From assembly GCF_001553565.1 (NCBI RefSeq), contig NZ_CP014228.1:2976001-3040000 (forward strand): a stretch of DNA of 64,000 bases, read 5' to 3'. Position 1 is the first letter of the stretch. Each line of letters starts with the position of its first letter. The notes under the pieces are model-generated. The model made no database searches, was not told the DNA's origin, and saw nothing but the letters and a program-made list of their open reading frames with translations. This document shows, piece by piece, positions 47,956-60,752 of this stretch. Source of the DNA: Actinomyces radicidentis (lineage in GTDB: Bacteria > Actinomycetota > Actinomycetes > Actinomycetales > Actinomycetaceae). Position numbers and translations under genes: made by a program.

Positions 47956-49641
47956 TCAGGCCTCGATGACCACCGGGACGATCATCGGGCGGCGCTTGAG
48001 GCGGCGGCCGACGAAGCGTCCGACGGTGCGGCGCATGACCTGCTGGAGGGAGTGGGCGTCCTGGTTGCCCTTGTCGAGGGCCTCCTGGAGGGCCTTGGTG
48101 ACGTCGGGGAGGATCTCGCCGAGCACCTCGTCGTCCTCGGCGACGCCGCGGGCCTGGATGTCCGGGCCGGCGAGGATCGTGCCGGTCTTGGTCTCGACGA
48201 CGGCGTAGACGGAGATGAAGCCCTCCTCGGAGAGGATGCGGCGGTCCTTGAGCTCGGTCTCGTCGATCTCGCCGACGGAGGAGCCGTCGACGTAGACGTA
48301 GCCGCAGGGCACGGCGCCGGCGATGCGGGCGCGGCCGTCGACGAGGTCGACGACGACGCCGTCCTCGGCGAGAACGACGTTCTTCGGGTTGACGCCGGTC
48401 TTGACGGCCAGCGCCCCGTTGGCGACGAGGTGGCGGATCTCGCCGTGGATCGGCATGACGTTCTCAGGGGCCACGATGTTGTAGACGTGGAGGAGCTCCT
48501 CGGAGGAGGCGTGCCCGGAGACGTGGACCTTGGCGTTGCCCTGGTGGACGACGCGGGCGCCGAGGCGCATGAGCTGGTTGATGACGCGGTAGACGCTGTT
48601 CTCGTTGCCCGGGATGAGGGAGGAGGCGAAGATGACGGTGTCCCCCGGCTCGACCGTGACGGAGCGGTGCTCGCCGTGGGCCATGCGGGACAGGGCGGCC
48701 ATCGGCTCGCCCTGGGAGCCGGTCACCATGAGGACGCGCTCGTCGTCGGGGACGGAGTTGACGTCGCGGGCGTCGATGAGGACGCCGTCGGGGACCTTGA
48801 GGTAGCCGCGCTCGGCGGCGATGCCCATGTTGCGGACCATGGAGCGGCCGACGAGGGCGACCTTGCGGCCGTGGAGGGCGGCGGCGTCGAGGACCTGCTG
48901 GACGCGGTGCACGTGGCTCGAGAACGACGCGACGATGATCTGCTGGTCGGACTCGGCGAAGACGTTGTCGAGGACGGGGCCGATCTGGGCCTCGTGGCCG
49001 ATCATGCCGGGGACCTCGGCGTTGGTGGAGTCGACGAGGAAGAGGTCGACGCCCTCGTCGGCGAAGCGCGCGAAGGAGCGCAGGTCGGTGATGCGGCCGT
49101 CGATCGGCAGGGAGTCGATCTTGAAGTCGCCCGTGATGAGCGCCTTGCCGGCCGCGGTGCGGATGAAGCAGGCCATCGCGTCCGGGATGGAGTGGTTGAC
49201 GGCGACGAACTCGAGGTCGAAGGGGCCGTAGGAGACGCGCTCGTGCTCGCGGACGACGCGCAGGCTGGGGCGGATGCGGTGCTCCTTGAGCTTGGCCTCG
49301 ACGAAGGCGAGAGTGAGCTGGGAGCCGACGATCGGGATGTCGTCGCGCAGTCGCAGGAGGTAGGGGACGCCGCCGATGTGGTCCTCGTGCCCGTGGGTGA
49401 GGACGAGGCCGACGACGTCGTCGATGCGGTCCTCGATGGAGGAGAAGTCCGGGAGGATGAGGTCGACGCCGGGCTGGTCCTCCTCGGGGAAGAGGACGCC
49501 GCAGTCGACGACGAGGAGCTTGCCGTCGACCTCGAAGACGGTCATGTTGCGCCCGACCTCGCCGAGGCCACCCAGCGGGGTGATGCGCATCGCGCCGTCG
49601 GGGATCGGACCGGGGGCCTTGAGCGTGGGGAAGTTCGTCAC
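47956..49641 (-). CDS. rnj: ribonuclease J
   Basis: RNase J is a metallo-beta-lactamase/beta-CASP nuclease with 5'-exonuclease and endonuclease activity in RNA decay and rRNA maturation. The 561-residue protein has the zinc motif LTHGHEDHIGGVPYLL near residue 80, VAVNHSIPDAMACFI near 150, GDFKIDSLPIDGR, and in the beta-CASP domain SGHASSEEL and MPIHGEIRHL. The C-terminal domain ends in RLKRRPMIVPVVIEA. The GTG at 49641 is fixed by TACACT six bases upstream. The place next to ftsK is usual in actinobacteria, although dapA, often between or beside them, is missing here. Confidence 0.95.
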   Translation of the reverse strand: MTNFPTLKAPGPIPDGAMRITPLGGLGEVGRNMTVFEVDGKLLVVDCGVLFPEEDQPGVDLILPDFSSIEDRIDDVVGLVLTHGHEDHIGGVPYLLRLRDDIPIVGSQLTLAFVEAKLKEHRIRPSLRVVREHERVSYGPFDLEFVAVNHSIPDAMACFIRTAAGKALITGDFKIDSLPIDGRITDLRSFARFADEGVDLFLVDSTNAEVPGMIGHEAQIGPVLDNVFAESDQQIIVASFSSHVHRVQQVLDAAALHGRKVALVGRSMVRNMGIAAERGYLKVPDGVLIDARDVNSVPDDERVLMVTGSQGEPMAALSRMAHGEHRSVTVEPGDTVIFASSLIPGNENSVYRVINQLMRLGARVVHQGNAKVHVSGHASSEELLHVYNIVAPENVMPIHGEIRHLVANGALAVKTGVNPKNVVLAEDGVVVDLVDGRARIAGAVPCGYVYVDGSSVGEIDETELKDRRILSEEGFISVYAVVETKTGTILAGPDIQARGVAEDDEVLGEILPDVTKALQEALDKGNQDAHSLQQVMRRTVGRFVGRRLKRRPMIVPVVIEA

Positions 49642-49653: not shown

Positions 49654-49732
49654 GCCAGTGGGGCCGACCGCGGCGCCGCGGCTCCGCTGGGCGCGAGCGC
49701 GGGTGGGGCAGGCCCGCAGCGGGGAACGAGAA

Positions 49733-49760
49733 GAGCCCGACCGCTGGCGCGGTCGGGCTC
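49733..49760 (-). terminator. intrinsic terminator of tRNA cluster
   Basis: A perfect 12-bp stem (GAGCCCGACCGC with its complement) and TGGC loop are followed on the minus strand by TTCTCGTT. It lies ten bases after the last tRNA-Glu. Confidence 0.75.
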
Positions 49761-49770
49761 CTGGTGGTGG

Positions 49771-49842
49771 TACCCCGTGCCGGATTTGAACCGGCGCTGC
49801 CGCCGTGAGAGGCGGTGTCCTGGGCCGCTAGACGAACGGGGC
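49771..49842 (-). tRNA. tRNA-Glu(CTC) variant with 1-nt anticodon-arm deletion
   Basis: This 72-nt copy matches its two neighbours across the acceptor stem, D arm and T arm but lacks one C at the base of the anticodon loop. With a full five-pair stem (CCGCC/GGCGG) the loop has six bases, TCTCAC; a four-pair stem restores a seven-base loop. The T stem carries a G-C pair where the others have A-U, a compensated change that argues against simple decay. It is the only copy followed by an encoded CCA. Confidence 0.7.
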
Positions 49843-49905
49843 TCAGAGGCTCTGAATGAGCAGAGGCTGTGTTCAGTTTCTCCTGGACCGGACGAGCCGG
49901 AACCG

Positions 49906-49978
49906 TACCCCGTACCGGATTTGAACCGGTGCTGCCGCCGTGAGAGGGCGGTGTCCTGGGCCGCTAGACGAACGGGGC
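49906..49978 (-). tRNA. tRNA-Glu(CTC)
   Basis: This is a complete cloverleaf of 73 nt: acceptor GCCCCGT/ACGGGGT, anticodon loop CTCTCAC giving anticodon CTC, and a T loop TTCAAAT. CCA is not encoded. Confidence 0.93.
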
Positions 49979-50013
49979 CTTGAACCAGCATCCGCCTGAG
50001 ACGGTGCTGCTCG

Positions 50014-50086
50014 TACCCCGTACCGGATTTGAACCGGTGCTGCCGCCGTGAGAGGGCGGTGTCCTGGGCCGCTAGACGAACGGGGC
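50014..50086 (-). tRNA. tRNA-Glu(CTC)
   Basis: This 73-nt gene is identical in its cloverleaf to the copy at 49906-49978, with 35 bp between them. CCA is not encoded. Confidence 0.93.
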
Positions 50087-50170: not shown

Positions 50171-50242
50171 CTGGGGTACCAGGACTCGAACCTAGAATGG
50201 ATGAACCAGAATCACCTGTGTTGCCAATTACACCATACCCCA
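50171..50242 (-). tRNA. tRNA-Gln(CTG)
   Basis: This 72-nt cloverleaf has acceptor TGGGGTA/TACCCCA, an anticodon loop TTCTGGT giving CTG, and discriminator G. It is the first gene of the tRNA cluster; CCA is not encoded. Confidence 0.92.
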
Positions 50243-50472: not shown

Positions 50473-52047
50473 TCAGGCCAGGCGCGCTCGCAGCGAGCGC
50501 AGGCGGGCCAGGGAGGACTCGGCGCCGAGGATCTCCATGGACTCGAAGAGCGGCGGGGAGACCTGGCGGCCGGTGACGGCGACGCGCAGCGGGCCGAAGG
50601 CGAGGCGCGGCTTGATGTCGAGGCCCTCGACGATGGCCTCGCGGAGGACCTCCTCGAGGCGCTCGTGCTGCCACTCGCCCACACCGAGGGCGGCCAGGGA
50701 CTCGATGGCGGCGTCGAGGACGGCCGGGGCGGAGTCCTTCAGCTTCGCCACGGCCTTCTCGTCGAGCTCGAGGGCGTCGTCGGAGACGAAGAGGAAGCCG
50801 AGCATGTCGCGGGACTCGCGCAGCAGCTGGACGCGGGTCTGGATGAGCGGGGCGGCGGCGGTGAGCACGTCCTGCTCGCGCTCGGAGAGCTCCGCGAAGG
50901 AGTCGGCGGAGACGAGGGGCTGCGCGGTCCACTCGAGGTCGGCCGGGTCGGCGAAGGCGTCGGCGAGGTAGGGCACGAGGCGGTCGCGGAAGTCCTCGGG
51001 GGCGAGGAGGCGGACGTGCTCGGCGTTGATGGCCTCGCACTTCTTGGGGTCGAAGCGCGCCGGGTTCGGGTTGACGTCGTGGACGTCGAAGGCGGCGAGC
51101 ATCTCCGCGGCGGAGAAGACGTCCTCGTCCTTCGACAGGGACCAGCCGAGCAGCGCGAGGTAGTTGAGGAGGCCCTCCGGGATCATGCCGCGGTAACGGT
51201 GGATAAGGAGGTTGGACTCGGGGTCGCGCTTGGAGAGCTTCTTGTTGCCCTCGCCCATGACGTAGGGCAGGTGGCCGAACTCGGGGATGAAGTCGGCGCG
51301 CCCGATGGCGACGAGGGCGCGGTAGAGGACGACCTGGCGCGGGGTGGAGGACAGGAGGTCCTCACCGCGCAGGACGTGGGTGATGCCCATGGCGGCATCG
51401 TCGACGGGGTTGACGAGCGGGTAGAGCGGGTCCCCGTTGGCGCGCACGACGACGTAGTCGGGCACGGAGCCGGCCTTGAAGGTGATGGGTCCGCGGACGA
51501 GGTCGGTGAAGGTGACGTCCTCGTCGGGCATGCGCAGGCGCAGGACGGGCTTGCGGCCCTCGGCCTCGTAGGCGGCCTTCTGCTCGGCGGTGAGCTCGCG
51601 GTCGTAGCCGTCGTAGCCGAGCTTGGGGTCCTCGCCCTTGGCGCGGTGGCGCTCCTCGACCTCCTCCGGGGTGGAGTAGGACTCGTAGAGGTAGCCGGCC
51701 TCGAGGAGCTCGGCGGCGACCCGCCTGTAGAGGTCCATGCGCTCGGACTGGCGGTAGGGCTCGTGCGGGCCGCCCTTGCCGACGCCCTCGTCCCAGTCCA
51801 TGCCGAGCCAGCGCAGGGAGTCGAGGATGTCGTTGAATGACTCCTCGGAGTCGCGGGCGGCGTCGGTGTCCTCGATGCGGAAGACGAAGGTGCCGCCGGT
51901 GTGGCGCGCGTAGGCGTAGTTGAAGAGGCAGGTGCGGACCATGCCGACGTGGGGGGTGCCGGTCGGCGAGGGGCAGAAGCGGACGCGGACGTCGGCGGAG
52001 CCGACGGCGGGCAGGGCCGACGCGGGGGTCGAGGCGTTCTCAGTCAT
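50473..52047 (-). CDS. gltX: glutamyl-tRNA synthetase
   Basis: GltX charges tRNA-Glu and, in organisms without GlnRS, also tRNA-Gln for later amidation; the latter role is inference. The 524-residue class I synthetase has [19 protein letters not shown] near residue 24 with the HIGH-type motif HVGM, and [12 protein letters not shown] near residue 264 as the KMSKS-type loop. [21 protein letters not shown] lies between. The ATG at 52047 follows TACGCT by nine bases. The tRNA-Gln/Glu cluster lies 230 bp downstream on the same strand, behind a hairpin. Confidence 0.96.
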
Positions 52048-54386: not shown

Positions 54387-55931
54387 TCAGCGCTGCTCGA
54401 CGGCGACGCCGCCGTTCGTGGCGGAGGCGGAGCCGTCCCAGACGTCGCCGGGGACGTCGCGGGGAAGGTTCGGGTTGCCGGTCCCGACGAAGCGGATGAC
54501 GTCGATCTCACCGCGCTTCTGCGCCTCGCGCTGCTGCTCCCAGTCGCGCAGGGCGCCGAAGGCCCACTTGCCGAGCAGCGCGATGGAGACGATGTTGATC
54601 GTCGCCATGCAGCCCATCGCGACGTCGGAGAGGTTCCAGACGAAGGTCAGCGAGGCGACCGAGCCGATGAAGGTCGCCACGAGGATCATCGTGCGCAGCA
54701 GGTAGTGCTTCGACTGGCCCTTGCGGATGAAGTCCATGTTGACCTCGGCGTACGTGAAGTTACCCAGCAGCGAGGAGTAGGCGAAGACGAAGAGGATGAA
54801 GGCCATGAGGTACTGAGACCACGAGCCGAGCTGCGAGGTCACGGAGGCGGTCGTGAGGACGCCGGCGGTGTCCGCGTCCGCGCCAGCCGGGGTGTAGACG
54901 CCTGAGAGCAGGACGATGAGCGCGGTCGCGGTGCACACGACGATGGTGTCGACGAAGACGCCCATGGACTGGATGAAGCCCTGGTTGACCGGGTGCGAGG
55001 TGGTCGCGGTGGCGGCGGCGTTCGGGACGGATCCCTCACCGGCCTCGTTGGAGAACAGGCCTCGCTTGATGCCGTTGATAGCGGCGGCGTAGAGACCGCC
55101 GGACAGGCCGGCGAAGGCCTGGTTGAGGCCGAAGGCGCCCTCGAAGATCTCCTTGATCGCCAACGGGATGGCGCCGAGGTTCATGACGAGGATGACGATC
55201 GCGATGAGCGCGTACAGCAGGGCCATGAAGGGGGCCATCCACTCGGCGACGCCGGCGACGCGCTTGATGCCCTTGAAGATGATGGGCGCGGTGATGACGA
55301 CGAGGACGATCGCGGTGACCCACGGCTCGACGCCGAAGGTGTCGTGCGCGGTGGCGGCGATGGTGTTGGCCTGGGTGGCCTCGTAGGCGAAGCCGAAGAC
55401 GAAGGTGATGACGACGGCGAAGACGGAGCCCCAGGTCCGCGAGCCGAGGCCGCGGGTGATGTAGTAGGCGGGGCCTCCGCGGAAGGTGCCGTCGTGGTGG
55501 CGGACCTTGAAGATCTGGGCGAGCGTGGACTCGATGAAGCCGGTGGCCATGCCGACGGTGGCGACGAGCCACATCCAGAAGACGGCGCCGGGTCCGCCCA
55601 TGGTGATGGCGATGGCGACGCCGACGATGTTGCCGGTGCCGACGCGCGAGGCCAGGCCGATCGCGAAGGCCTGGAAGGAGGAGATGCCGCCCTCGTGCTC
55701 GTCGGCGGAGGATCGCGAGCCGGTGATCTCCTTGACCATGTCGCCGAAGTGGCGGAACTGGACGCCGCGGGAACGGATCGTGAAGTACAGGCCGGCGGCG
55801 ATGAGCACCCAGGCGAGGAACTGACCGTAGAGGTGGTCCGAGACGTTGGCGAGCGAGTCCGCCGCCGAGTCGAGGACCGAGCTCGGGGCCGCGGCTGCGG
55901 CGAGCACGGAGGCGCTGAGGAGTGTGGACAT
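54387..55931 (-). CDS. sodium:alanine/glycine symporter, AGCS family (copy 1)
   Basis: This 514-residue carrier imports alanine, glycine or a related small amino acid with sodium. GGISSFQAFAIGLASRVGTG near residue 83, GGPGAVFWMWLVATVGMA near 113, the N-terminal half ending at FRGGPAYYI, and SNEAGEGSVPNAAATATTSH near residue 290 are AGCS signatures; ten to eleven membrane helices are seen. The soluble tail carries FVGTGNPNLPRDVPGDVW, shared with the other three copies. The ATG at 55931 has GGAGG five bases upstream. A strong terminator separates it from copies 2-4, so it is transcribed on its own. Confidence 0.92.
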   Translation of the reverse strand: MSTLLSASVLAAAAAPSSVLDSAADSLANVSDHLYGQFLAWVLIAAGLYFTIRSRGVQFRHFGDMVKEITGSRSSADEHEGGISSFQAFAIGLASRVGTGNIVGVAIAITMGGPGAVFWMWLVATVGMATGFIESTLAQIFKVRHHDGTFRGGPAYYITRGLGSRTWGSVFAVVITFVFGFAYEATQANTIAATAHDTFGVEPWVTAIVLVVITAPIIFKGIKRVAGVAEWMAPFMALLYALIAIVILVMNLGAIPLAIKEIFEGAFGLNQAFAGLSGGLYAAAINGIKRGLFSNEAGEGSVPNAAATATTSHPVNQGFIQSMGVFVDTIVVCTATALIVLLSGVYTPAGADADTAGVLTTASVTSQLGSWSQYLMAFILFVFAYSSLLGNFTYAEVNMDFIRKGQSKHYLLRTMILVATFIGSVASLTFVWNLSDVAMGCMATINIVSIALLGKWAFGALRDWEQQREAQKRGEIDVIRFVGTGNPNLPRDVPGDVWDGSASATNGGVAVEQR

Positions 55932-56232
55932 GTCGACCTCCAGGGCCGGGGCGGCGTCGACGGCGCGCGCCGTCGACGTTCCGCCGGGTCGGGACGCGGT
56001 CTGGCCGGGGGTCGAGCGGGGTCTGCTCGGGCAGGGCGCGCCATGGTAACGCTGCACCTTAAGGAGCGGATGTGGCGACGAGGTACTGCCTATGTTTCCG
56101 ACGTGTGACAGCGGGGTGCGGGGCACGTCACGTCCAGCTGCCTGCCGTCGCCCCGGCAGGGCCACGCGCTGCGCCGTCCTGCCCCGGCCGCCCGCCGCGG
56201 GATCGCGGCGGGCGGCCGGGGCAGCCGGGACC
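55932..56232 (-). other. gap between symporter copies 1 and 2 (301 bp)
   Basis: The upstream end contains the 20-bp terminator stem at 56179-56224. The region 55940-56170 should hold the promoter of copy 1. It includes the AT-richest bases of the area around 56040-56100, but no convincing -35/-10 pair was identified. No gene is supported. Confidence 0.5.
56179..56224 (-). terminator. terminator of symporter operon (copies 4-3-2)
   Basis: A perfect 20-bp inverted repeat with loop GGGATC lies nine bases after the stop of copy 2. It is the longest stem in the window; no T tract follows. Confidence 0.75.
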
Positions 56233-57717
56233 TCACCGCACGGGGGCGGTCTCCCGGGAGTCCGTCCGCTCCCCGGCCCAGACGTCGCCCTCGAGCTCGC
56301 CGGGCAGGTAGCGGTTGCCGGTGGCGACGAAGCGCGGTGCCTCGACGCCGGCGGCCCGCTGGGCCTCCCAGTCCCGCAGCGCCCCGCCCACCCAGCGCGA
56401 CAGGGCGACGATGGCGATGAGGTTGAGGATCGCGCCGGCGCCCAGGAGCACGTCGGCGAGGGTCCACACGGTGGTGAGGGCCGCACCACCGCCCACGAAG
56501 GAGCAGACGACGGCGGCCGCGCGCAGCGCCGTCGGCGCCCAGGAGCGCTTCGTGAGGTAGTCGAGGCTGACCTCGGCGTAGGAGAAGGCCCCGAGGATCG
56601 TCGAGTAGGCGAGGACGAGGATGAGGAGGGTCATCGGCCAGCTCGTCCAGCTCCCGAGCAGGTGCGCGATGGCCCGCTGGGTGAGGGTGCCGGAGACGTC
56701 GACGCCGTCGGCTCCCGTGACGCCGGGCGTGTAGACGGTGCCGTCGTCGGCGCTGGCGATGAGGATGGCCAGCGCCGTCGCCGTGCACACGAGCATGGTG
56801 TCGACGAAGACGCCGAAGGCCTGGATGAAGCCCTGCTGCGCCGGGTGGGCGACAGTGGCCGAGCCCGAGGCGCAGGCGGCTCCGCCCAGACCGGCCTCGT
56901 TGGAGAAGAGGCCGCGGCGCACGCCGTTGAGGACGGCGGCGGCCACTCCCCCGGCGGCTCCGGCCAGCCCGGCCCGCAGGCCGAAGGCGCCGGCGACGAT
57001 CTGCCCCAGGGCGGTACCCGCCTGCTCGGGGTGGGTGACGATGATGAGCAGGACGAGGACGATGTAGGCGATCGCCATGATCGGCGCCATCCACTCGGTG
57101 ACGCTCGCGATGGAGCGCAGGCCGCCGAGGAGCACCGGTGCCACGAGCACCGCGACGATCGCGGCGCCCCACCAGGGGTTGAGCCCGGCGGAGGACTCGA
57201 GGGCCGCGGTCATGGCGTTGGCCTGCACCATGGGCATCGCGAGCCCGTTGGCGACCATGAAGACGACGGCGAAGACCGCGCCGATGACGGGCCAGTGCAG
57301 GCCGCGGGCGAGGTAGTAGGCGGGGCCGCCGCGGAAGGTGCCGTCGCCGCGGCGCACCTTGAAGACCTGGCCGAGGGTGGCCTCGCAGAAGGCGGTCGCC
57401 ATGCCGACGAGGGCGACGACCCACATCCAGAACACGGCGCCCGGCCCGCCGAGGACGAGGGCGAGGGCGACGCCGACGACGTTGCCCGTGCCGACGCGGC
57501 AGGCGAGACCGACGGCGAAGGCCTGGAAGGAGGAGATCCCGCCCTCCGCCCCGGATCGCGAGCCGGCGACGGCGCGCAGCACGGAGCGGACGTGACGGAG
57601 CTGGACGGCGCGGGTGCGCCAGGTGACGAAGGCGCCGACTCCGAGGAGGAGCCAGACGAGGACCGTGCCGAAGAGCCAGTTGGACAGGGTGGACAGGACG
57701 GTGTCGACGATGCTCAC
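56233..57717 (-). CDS. sodium:alanine/glycine symporter, AGCS family (copy 2, divergent)
   Basis: This 494-residue AGCS carrier has GGISSFQAFAVGLACRVGTG near residue 60 and GGPGAVFWMWVVALVGMATA near 90. Its normally conserved substrate-region motif reads SNEAGLGGAACASGSATVAH where the other three copies have G-S/T-x-PNAA, so its substrate may differ. The tail ends FVATGNRYLPGELEGDVW. The GTG at 57717 lies three bases after the stop of copy 3, and it is the last gene of the three-gene unit, before a strong terminator. Confidence 0.9.
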   Translation of the reverse strand: MSIVDTVLSTLSNWLFGTVLVWLLLGVGAFVTWRTRAVQLRHVRSVLRAVAGSRSGAEGGISSFQAFAVGLACRVGTGNVVGVALALVLGGPGAVFWMWVVALVGMATAFCEATLGQVFKVRRGDGTFRGGPAYYLARGLHWPVIGAVFAVVFMVANGLAMPMVQANAMTAALESSAGLNPWWGAAIVAVLVAPVLLGGLRSIASVTEWMAPIMAIAYIVLVLLIIVTHPEQAGTALGQIVAGAFGLRAGLAGAAGGVAAAVLNGVRRGLFSNEAGLGGAACASGSATVAHPAQQGFIQAFGVFVDTMLVCTATALAILIASADDGTVYTPGVTGADGVDVSGTLTQRAIAHLLGSWTSWPMTLLILVLAYSTILGAFSYAEVSLDYLTKRSWAPTALRAAAVVCSFVGGGAALTTVWTLADVLLGAGAILNLIAIVALSRWVGGALRDWEAQRAAGVEAPRFVATGNRYLPGELEGDVWAGERTDSRETAPVR

Positions 57718-57720
57718 GGC

Positions 57721-59247
57721 TCAGGCCTCCCCACCGGCGGCGGGCGCCTGGGACGACGTCGTGGCGGCGCGCTCGGGGCGGGGCTCCCAGACGCCGTCGG
57801 CGGTGTCTCCGGGCAGGAGCGGGTTGCCGTGCCCGACGAAGACCGGGTCGGCGACGCCGACGGCCCGCTGCGCCTCGAAGTCGCGCAGGGCGCCGAGGGC
57901 CCAGGGGGCGAGGCGCACGATGGCGACGAGATTGAGCAATCCCATGAGGCCCAGGGCGATGTCCGTGAGGGCCCAGACGATGGGCAGGGTGAGGACGGTT
58001 CCGGCGAAGGCCGCTGCGGTGAGCAGGACGCCGAGGACCTGCTCGGCACGGAGCTCCCCGCCCAGGAAGTTCACGTTGACCTGTGAGTACGAGTAGCAGC
58101 CGAGCACGGTGGAGAAGACGAGGATGAAGATGAGGACGACCATCGGCCAGGTGGTCCACTCCCCCAGGTGCTCGACGACGGCCTGCTGGGTGAGGACGGC
58201 GCCCACGAGGCCCTGCTTGCCGGGCTGGTAGGTGTCCGTGGCGAGCAGGATGAGGAGTCCGGTCGCGGTGCACACGAGGATCGTGTCGACGAAGACGCCG
58301 AAGGACTGGATGAGGCCCTGCCTCACGGGGTGCGTCGTCGTCGCGGTGCCCGCGGCGTTCGGAGCGGTGCCGAGACCGGCCTCGTTGGAGAACAGGCCTC
58401 GGCGCACGCCGTTAAGGACGGCGGCGAAGAGGCCGCCGGCGACGCCGTAGAGCGCCTGGTCGGCACCGAAGGCGCCGCGGAGGATCTCGGCCAGGACGTG
58501 CGGGAGCTGACCGAGGTGCATGCAGATGACGACGATCGTCATGACGACGTAGACGAGCGCCATGAGGGGTGCCATCCACTCGGCCGCGCGGGCCACGGCG
58601 TGGAGACCGCCGAGCACGATCGGGAGGGTGAGGACGATGAGGACGACGCCGACCATCCACGGCTGGACGCTGGGGACGGTCGCGTTGATGATGCCGGCCA
58701 GGGAGTTCGTCTGGACCATGACGACCGTGAGGCCGACGGCAACGATGCACAGGACGGCGAAGACGCCCGACCAGAAGCGCGAGCCGAGCCCGTGCCGGAT
58801 GTAGTACGCGGGGCCGCCGTGGAAGGTGAGGCCGCGGCCGCGGACCTTGAAGACCTGGGCGAGGGTGGACTCGATGAAGGCGGTCGCCATGCCGAGGACC
58901 GCGACGACCCACATCCAGAACAGGGCGCCCGGTCCGCCGGCGACGACGGCGAGGGCGACGCCGGCGACGTTGCCGATGCCCACGCGGGCGGCGAGCCCGA
59001 CGGCGAAGGCCTGGAAGGAGGAGATCCCGCCCTCCGCGCCGGAGCGGGAGGAGGTGATGGTCCGCAGCATCGTGCCGAGGTGGCGCAGCTGGACGCCGCG
59101 GGTGCGGACGGTGAAGTACAGGCCGCAGGCGATGAGGAGGACCGCGAGGACGTAGGTGTAGAGGCGGTCGTCGATGGTGTTGAGGGCAGCCTCGACGTCG
59201 GCGGCGCTGAGGGCCGGGAGGGCGGCGGCCGTGAGGATCGTGCTCAT
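57721..59247 (-). CDS. sodium:alanine/glycine symporter, AGCS family (copy 3)
   Basis: This 508-residue AGCS carrier has GGISSFQAFAVGLAARVGIG near residue 75, GGPGALFWMWVVAVLGMATA near 105 and SNEAGLGTAPNAAGTATTTH near 285. Its tail carries FVGHGNPLLPGDTADGVW and ends in a Ala/Ser-rich stretch. The ATG at 59247 overlaps the stop of copy 4 by four bases (ATGA), so the two are translationally coupled. About eleven hydrophobic helices are seen. Confidence 0.92.
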   Translation of the reverse strand: MSTILTAAALPALSAADVEAALNTIDDRLYTYVLAVLLIACGLYFTVRTRGVQLRHLGTMLRTITSSRSGAEGGISSFQAFAVGLAARVGIGNVAGVALAVVAGGPGALFWMWVVAVLGMATAFIESTLAQVFKVRGRGLTFHGGPAYYIRHGLGSRFWSGVFAVLCIVAVGLTVVMVQTNSLAGIINATVPSVQPWMVGVVLIVLTLPIVLGGLHAVARAAEWMAPLMALVYVVMTIVVICMHLGQLPHVLAEILRGAFGADQALYGVAGGLFAAVLNGVRRGLFSNEAGLGTAPNAAGTATTTHPVRQGLIQSFGVFVDTILVCTATGLLILLATDTYQPGKQGLVGAVLTQQAVVEHLGEWTTWPMVVLIFILVFSTVLGCYSYSQVNVNFLGGELRAEQVLGVLLTAAAFAGTVLTLPIVWALTDIALGLMGLLNLVAIVRLAPWALGALRDFEAQRAVGVADPVFVGHGNPLLPGDTADGVWEPRPERAATTSSQAPAAGGEA

Positions 59248-60752
59248 CGCTCGGCCCCCGTCGCGGCGGCGGGCTGGGTGGTCTCGGGGACGCCGCTCCA
59301 GACGTCGCCGGGCACGTCGGCCGGGAGGAAGCGGTTGCCGGTGCCGCGGAAGACGGGCTCGGCCACTCCGGCGGCGCGCTGGGCCTCGTAGTCCTTGAGG
59401 ACGCCGACGCCCCAGCGGGACAGGGCGATGAGGGCGACGAGGTTGGTGAGGGTCATGATCGCCATGGCGATGTCGACGGCGTTCCAGACGACGTCGAGGG
59501 ACAGGACGGCGCCCGCGGTGGCGGACAGGGCGCTCACCCAGCGCACGATCCAGCTCGCCCACTTCCTGCCGCCCGTCAGGAAGGACATGTTGACGTCGGA
59601 GTAGACGTAGGCGGCGATGATCGAGGAGTAGGCGAGGACGAAGATGAGGACGGCCATGGGGGCCACGGTCCAGCCGCCGAGCTCGTGGGAGATGGCGAGG
59701 GTCGTGAGGTTGGCGGGGTTGGCGCCCTCCGCGGTCCAGGTCTCGGGGCCGGCGATGAGGATGACGAAGGCGGTCGCGGTGCACACGACGATGGTGTCGA
59801 TGAAGACGCCGAGCGACTGGATGAAGCCCTGCTGGACGGGGTGCGTGACGGTGGCGGTGGCGGCGGCGTTGGGGGCGGTGCCCTGGCCGGCCTCGTTGGA
59901 GAACAGGCCGCGCTTCGTGCCGTTGACGACGGCGGCCATGATCCCGCCGCCGAGGCCTCCGAGGATCGGCTGCGGGGCGAAGGCGCCGCGGACGATCTGG
60001 CCGAGCACGTCGACGAAGGAGGCGAGGTTGGTGAGGCAGATGAAGAGGACGAGGGCGACGTAGATGAGCGCCATGATCGGCGCCATCCACTCGGTCACGC
60101 GGGCCACGGAGCGGATCCCGCCGAAGACGACGACGGCGGTGAGGACGAAGGTGAGCGCCGCGACGACGAGCTGGGCGGCGGTGAGACCGCCGAAGCCGGG
60201 CAGGGCGGACTCGCCGGAGCCGAAGGCCTCGACGAGGGTGCCGGCGAAGGCGTTGGACTGCACCGAGGTGATGACGAAGCCGCAGGTGAGGACCGTGATG
60301 ACGGCGAAGGTGCCGCCGAGGGCCTTGGAGCGCATGCCGCCGGCCATGTAGAAGGCGGGGCCGCCGCGGAAGGTGCCGTCGGCGGCGCGCGCCTTGAAGA
60401 CCTGGGCGAGAGTGGCCTCGAAGAAGGCGGTCGCCATGCCGACCAGGGCGACGACCCACATCCAGAAGATGGCGCCGGGCCCGCCCATGAGGAGGGCGGC
60501 GGCGACGCCGAAGACGTTGCCGACGCCGACGCGGGCGGCGAGCGAGATCGCGAAGGCCTGGAAGGAGGAGATCCCGCCCTCAGCGCCCGAGCGCGAGCCG
60601 GCGACCTGCCGGACCATGTCGGGCAGGTGGCGGACCTGGACCGCGCGGGTGATGACCGTGAGGAAGAGACCGGTGGCGATGAGGACCCACATGGTGACGT
60701 GGGCCGTGATCCAGTCGGCGACCGTGAGGAGGTTGGCTGCGAGGGCGTCCAT
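59244..60752 (-). CDS. sodium:alanine/glycine symporter, AGCS family (copy 4)
   Basis: This 502-residue AGCS carrier is the first gene of the three-gene unit. GGISSFQAFAISLAARVGVG near residue 60, GGPGAIFWMWVVALVGMATA near 90 and SNEAGQGTAPNAAATATVTH near 285 mark the family; the tail carries FRGTGNRFLPADVPGDVW. The ATG at 60752 has no strong ribosome site. Two near-identical 12-base repeats stand 47-72 bases upstream and may bind a regulator. Substrate choice among alanine, glycine, serine or glutamine cannot be told from sequence. Confidence 0.92.
   Translation of the reverse strand: MDALAANLLTVADWITAHVTMWVLIATGLFLTVITRAVQVRHLPDMVRQVAGSRSGAEGGISSFQAFAISLAARVGVGNVFGVAAALLMGGPGAIFWMWVVALVGMATAFFEATLAQVFKARAADGTFRGGPAFYMAGGMRSKALGGTFAVITVLTCGFVITSVQSNAFAGTLVEAFGSGESALPGFGGLTAAQLVVAALTFVLTAVVVFGGIRSVARVTEWMAPIMALIYVALVLFICLTNLASFVDVLGQIVRGAFAPQPILGGLGGGIMAAVVNGTKRGLFSNEAGQGTAPNAAATATVTHPVQQGFIQSLGVFIDTIVVCTATAFVILIAGPETWTAEGANPANLTTLAISHELGGWTVAPMAVLIFVLAYSSIIAAYVYSDVNMSFLTGGRKWASWIVRWVSALSATAGAVLSLDVVWNAVDIAMAIMTLTNLVALIALSRWGVGVLKDYEAQRAAGVAEPVFRGTGNRFLPADVPGDVWSGVPETTQPAAATGAER

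Follow-up and report, generated by a model that had tools for sequence, protein, structure and literature searches.

Departures from the standard loop sizes are very rare among tRNAs according to one review, which names few exceptions, among them a mitochondrial tRNA of yeast that has one base too many, phage tRNAs, and a sponge mitochondrial tRNA (PMC5009743). The tRNA-Glu gene of Actinomyces radicidentis described here shares with these tRNAs an anticodon loop that is not seven bases long. It can also be compared with damaged tRNA copies (tRNA pseudogenes), including a truncated gene in the related genome G022, with which it has in common a single disabling-looking change, intact sister copies, and non-conservation; unlike a tRNA pseudogene, its cloverleaf scores well over the Rfam cut-off (46.7 versus 29 bits), and it shows no more decay. 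A further likeness is to the ordinary tRNA-Glu(CUC) of the Gln-Glu-Glu-Glu array between gltX and rnj, which it matches in position, order, sequence, and fold; it differs from the intact copy 3 of that array in the closest relative (G011) in lacking one C at positions 30-32 and in having a six-base loop. We consider it probable that a recent loss mutation has hit the redundant last gene of a tandem row of tRNA-Glu(CUC) copies. The short copy most likely represents either a damaged spare or a sequencing slip, rather than a tRNA of a new kind.

The array and its short copy

The window is the whole stretch of DNA that was analyzed, 64,000 nt in length. On its minus strand, the order of features is gltX, tRNA-Gln(CUG), tRNA-Glu(CUC), tRNA-Glu(CUC), the short tRNA-Glu, a strong hairpin, and a gene of the RNase J family, with the following coordinates and sources of assignment:

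50473..52047, minus strand: gltX, glutamate--tRNA ligase, upstream of the array (TIGR00464 over its cut-off)
50171..50242, minus strand: tRNA-Gln (CUG), first gene of the array (ARAGORN, Rfam RF00005)
50014..50086, minus strand: tRNA-Glu (CUC), intact copy 1, T-stem pair 49-65 A-U, without a CCA after it (ARAGORN, RF00005)
49906..49978, minus strand: tRNA-Glu (CUC), intact copy 2, identical to copy 1 (ARAGORN, RF00005)
49771..49842, minus strand: short tRNA-Glu copy 3, 72 nt, six-base loop UCUCAC, pair 49-65 G-C (ARAGORN, RF00005, folding)
49811..49812, minus strand: site of the missing base in the short copy, CC versus CCC at positions 30-32 (comparison with the other copies and G011)
49768..49770, minus strand: encoded CCA of the short copy (sequence)
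49731..49762, minus strand: 14-pair hairpin just 3' of the array, with a weak T tail; likely a terminator (folding, z -6.28)
47956..49641, minus strand: RNase J family gene, downstream of the array (TIGR00649 over its cut-off)

The original prediction held that the third tRNA-Glu copy is short by one C at the anticodon arm, giving a six-base loop or a four-pair stem, and that the other two copies are identical to each other; both statements were confirmed, the former in coordinates as well as in sequence. The gene (read from 49842 to 49771) has only two of the three Cs that the other copies carry at positions 30-32, and the plus strand accordingly has GG instead of GGG at 49811-49812. ARAGORN found four tRNAs in the window and labeled the short copy "tRNA-???" with the anticodon "ctca" and no isotype. 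RF00005 matched all four, giving the short copy 46.7 bits compared with 56.9 bits for each of its Glu neighbors, and the short copy aligns to this family with a single gap, which falls in the 5' half of the anticodon arm. The predicted minimum fold keeps the cloverleaf and has a five-pair anticodon stem with the six-base loop UCUCAC, in which U33 before the CUC and A37 after it are both retained; taking a seven-base anticodon loop as the mark of a functional tRNA-Glu, the short copy falls outside, at six bases. The G-C at the outer T-stem pair 49-65, in place of A-U, and the CCA immediately 3' of A73 are likewise present as described.

A scan for consensus promoters and terminators found no site; the hairpin listed above came from folding. 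A family search of eight neighboring proteins returned gltX, RNase J, a PfkB-family kinase, and FtsK, among others, and left one of the eight without a family match. Farther along, the window has several tandem copies of related sequence from about 54400 to 60700, with cross-matches to copies in G011 at about 68 to 72% identity.

The genome is a single contig of 3,051,613 bases with 51 tRNA-family matches above the cut-off. ARAGORN was run on all 51 loci; 50 received a triplet anticodon, and the short copy alone did not (1/51). There are four glutamate tRNA genes, three with CUC (the short one counted) and one with UUC, and when tested for redundancy the short copy was found to have two identical intact CUC sister copies.

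Two other tRNAs of this genome have unusual shapes. One, at 2629829-2629902, is a 75-nt tRNA with a CAA anticodon (Leu according to ARAGORN) that is without a long variable arm, an arm usual for tRNA-Leu. The other, at 2311528-2311620 on the plus strand, is a 93-nt tRNA with a UAU anticodon and a long variable arm; DNA matches of 92 to 100% identity to it occur in 49/49 genus genomes, the anticodon having been read in the A. radicidentis genome only. This genome has only two CAU tRNAs, and PF01171, the domain of TilS, had no match in it at E 0.001, while the same search was positive in 14/14 control genomes. The presence of the UAU tRNA, the two CAU tRNAs only, and the lack of a PF01171 match suggest that AUA is read by an oddly shaped UAU tRNA-Ile without lysidine. 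UAU tRNAs are known in bacteria without tilS, e.g., Mycoplasma mobile (PMC4013482). This side result may matter more than the short tRNA-Glu.

Relatives and public collections

The array was read in 46 of the 48 genus relatives; G040 and G044, with one weaker match each and in which the array was not found, were left out. In this comparison of copies across relatives, which had been proposed as a check on the original prediction, every one of the 110 Glu(CUC) copies (110/110, 46 relatives) has the normal seven-base loop. A pattern for the deletion matched 1/49 genus genomes, its own, and therefore 0/48 relatives; it also matched 1/396 sampled genomes of the order, again its own, the sample including just five other members of the genus. 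For scale, 31/49 genus genomes matched a strict intact-loop pattern, and 22/198 genomes of the phylum matched a looser one; these pattern counts are valid for this stem only, since a genome whose anticodon stem or D arm differs escapes them.

The stem-specific deletion pattern was also run on genomes of 84,980 species, a collection that may leave out close neighbors of the window's genome, and a single record matched, in an rRNA operon of Vibrio salinus DNF-1. ARAGORN gave no isotype for this tRNA-Glu (L039:2917-2988), and Rfam reported no tRNA there at its cut-off; it looks short at further places compared with the usual tRNA-Glu, seemingly by several bases, and perhaps reflects faulty assembly of this public genome. 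A literature search on six-base anticodon loops returned nothing under such phrases and one review otherwise, which is weak evidence; a search combining deletion, tRNA-Glu, and pseudogene returned no bacterial case among titles and the beginnings of abstracts.

The compensated T-stem change and the encoded CCA had been put forward as signs that the short copy is not a product of random decay. Both turned out to be ordinary: the outer T-stem pair 49-65 is G-C in 51 and A-T in 59 of the 110 copies from the 46 relatives, and a CCA follows the last Glu copy in 19/46. Since the pair and the CCA are normal variation among relatives, they are no argument for special selection, and we rejected the T-stem change as a sign of selection on the short copy, the allele being this common. 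What stands of the earlier argument is that the gene is otherwise free of decay. In G011, all three Glu copies are intact and carry G-C at 49-65, and the last is followed by a CCA. The T-stem allele is uniform per genome in all 44 relatives with at least two copies (44/44); the A. radicidentis array, with A-U in copies 1 and 2 and G-C in the short copy, is the sole mixed one of the 45 multi-copy arrays read (44 relatives and its own). As it alone is mixed, copy 3 seems to have escaped homogenization with copies 1 and 2, which appear to have been homogenized without it.

Everything that sets the short copy apart from its two neighbors (the lost C, the T-stem pair, and the CCA) lies from the anticodon arm onward, and integrases often recombine in the anticodon arm; the short copy could thus be the remnant of an integration in which a mobile element crossed over there and replaced the 3' half of the gene. 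We give this reading hardly any credence. The intact copy 3 of G011 has the same T-stem pair and CCA within colinear flanks, the hairpin and the RNase J gene directly adjoin the short copy, and no integrase is among the eight neighboring proteins searched; the colinear intact relative by itself largely refutes integration. A phage origin was also considered and rejected, as the best match in the phage collection, MT835574.1, with Gln-Glu-Glu in the same order, looks like host DNA. The matching part of this record (84373-84654), which is named "Bacteriophage sp." and has no annotated features, holds a host-like Gln-Glu-Glu and could come from a bacterium or from the flank of a prophage. Neither the short pattern nor the normal one had any match among viral contigs (0 each), and this collection thus says nothing.

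A possible sequencing error and the age of the loss

Of 29 relatives compared, G011 is the closest, at 92.3% identity to A. radicidentis over the 3 kb that surround the array. Its copy 3 has the full CCC and is equal to the short copy at 72/72 aligned bases; the test for further decay elsewhere in the short copy accordingly found none. Between the two genomes, the spacer between copies 2 and 3 has 10/63 differences and the three spacers pooled have 12/182. Counting half of the spacer differences on the A. radicidentis branch, about 6 neutral changes (2-3 spacer) or about 2.4 (pooled spacers) would be expected in 72 bases since the split from G011, against 0 observed. The absence of further changes suggests that the loss is probably very recent, that the copy is still functional, or that the sequence is in error; the argument is weak, since the pooled spacers predict so few changes.

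If sequencing or assembly went wrong here, the consensus would have dropped one of three Cs and the gene would be a normal 73-nt tRNA-Glu. We regard such an error as possible, if on the unlikely side; a sequencing error was also among the options of the original prediction. An error would leave things as they are found here, with a short copy otherwise identical to its intact G011 counterpart, and the sole match in the large collection, that of V. salinus, may itself be such an error. Furthermore, single bases are absent relative to G011 at three places of the array in the window (49811, 50000, and 50111). Of these losses, those at 50000 and 50111 sit in spacers and are probably ordinary divergence. 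Runs of only three bases are not where homopolymer errors typically arise, which is a point against an error at 49811.

We also looked for frame breaks using 47 mechanically called ORFs from the matching 80 kb of G011, taking those that matched the window at 75% identity or more. All 32 testable ORFs match the window in one frame (32/32; 15,011 residues), which speaks against the error; 15/47 ORFs fell short of that identity and were left out, and breaks near gene ends could be missed. Zero frame breaks in about 45 kb give an upper 95% limit near 7e-5 per base. The two spacer losses therefore look real, since an error rate giving three losses per about 500 bp would break many genes. A cruder frame count from DNA alignments gave 11 off-frame runs in 7/40 gene calls over 39,148 coding columns, some of them maybe counted double; inspected by eye, these runs fall where alignments end, close to gene starts that are uncertain, or among the repeated genes at 54-58 kb, and two window-side one-base gaps, at 56034 and 56037, are part of one of them. 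The frame test argues against an error-rich assembly and is compatible with one single error.

Spare copies and the possible fate of the last gene

Between species, the number of Glu(CUC) copies per array ranges from 1 to 4, a range in which draft assemblies may have collapsed repeats; as copy number varies in this way, copies of the array look dispensable. In G022 (L092:568-709), copy 3 of four is without its 3' acceptor end and overlaps copy 4. Judged by its sequence, this truncated gene is an independent damaged spare and the second such damage in the same array.

Damage to a redundant last copy, the reading that we prefer, would have come about by a one-base slippage deletion in the three-C run, and the base would then be truly missing in the organism. 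The loss would be tolerated because glutamate decoding goes on with the two intact CUC genes and the one UUC gene. Transcription of the array probably still yields the short RNA, which may take up a cloverleaf fold with its loop of six bases. Its decoding should be poor or absent, since position 32 (the partner of 38) is gone; we infer that GluRS and the ribosome would handle it poorly, and the RNA would presumably not be useful. Given its RF00005 score and lack of decay, the short copy would have to be a very fresh pseudogene, if the deletion is real.

Evidence against damage comes from the rest of the gene, which shows no decay, and from the intact predicted fold and CCA. These same features, together with the predicted five-pair stem and six-base loop and the sequence U33-CUC-A37, would suit a working non-standard tRNA that reads GAG with altered accuracy, shifts by -1, or acts outside decoding as a Glu donor or regulatory decoy, and a search found a GluTR domain encoded elsewhere in the genome. 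We consider a working tRNA of any such kind improbable; that it is a lineage-specific six-base-loop tRNA-Glu, transcribed, charged, and kept for reading GAG in the -1 register or as a non-decoding Glu-tRNA donor, strikes us as very improbable. Glu-tRNA can come from the two intact CUC copies, no indel calling for a frame shift was seen in the 32 tested ORFs of the window, and no specialized partner is among the eight neighboring proteins searched. The special roles offered by the original prediction (non-decoding tRNA, frameshift suppressor, or use in tetrapyrrole or peptide synthesis) lose ground in that a tRNA kept by selection might be expected in relatives as well and the deletion pattern occurs in 0/48 of them, but a role new to the lineage would look alike. 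Tetrapyrrole use is possible in view of the GluTR domain, but the two normal Glu copies can serve it. Lanthipeptide dehydratase, a user of Glu-tRNA, had no match in the genome; the control likewise matched nowhere, so this search says little.

If the missing base is an error, the locus is a reminder to compare single-base tRNA anomalies with relatives before inferring function. If the deletion is real, the gene would be a freshly damaged tRNA copy caught early and a natural six-base-loop test molecule, as well as an example of an array copy that has escaped homogenization.
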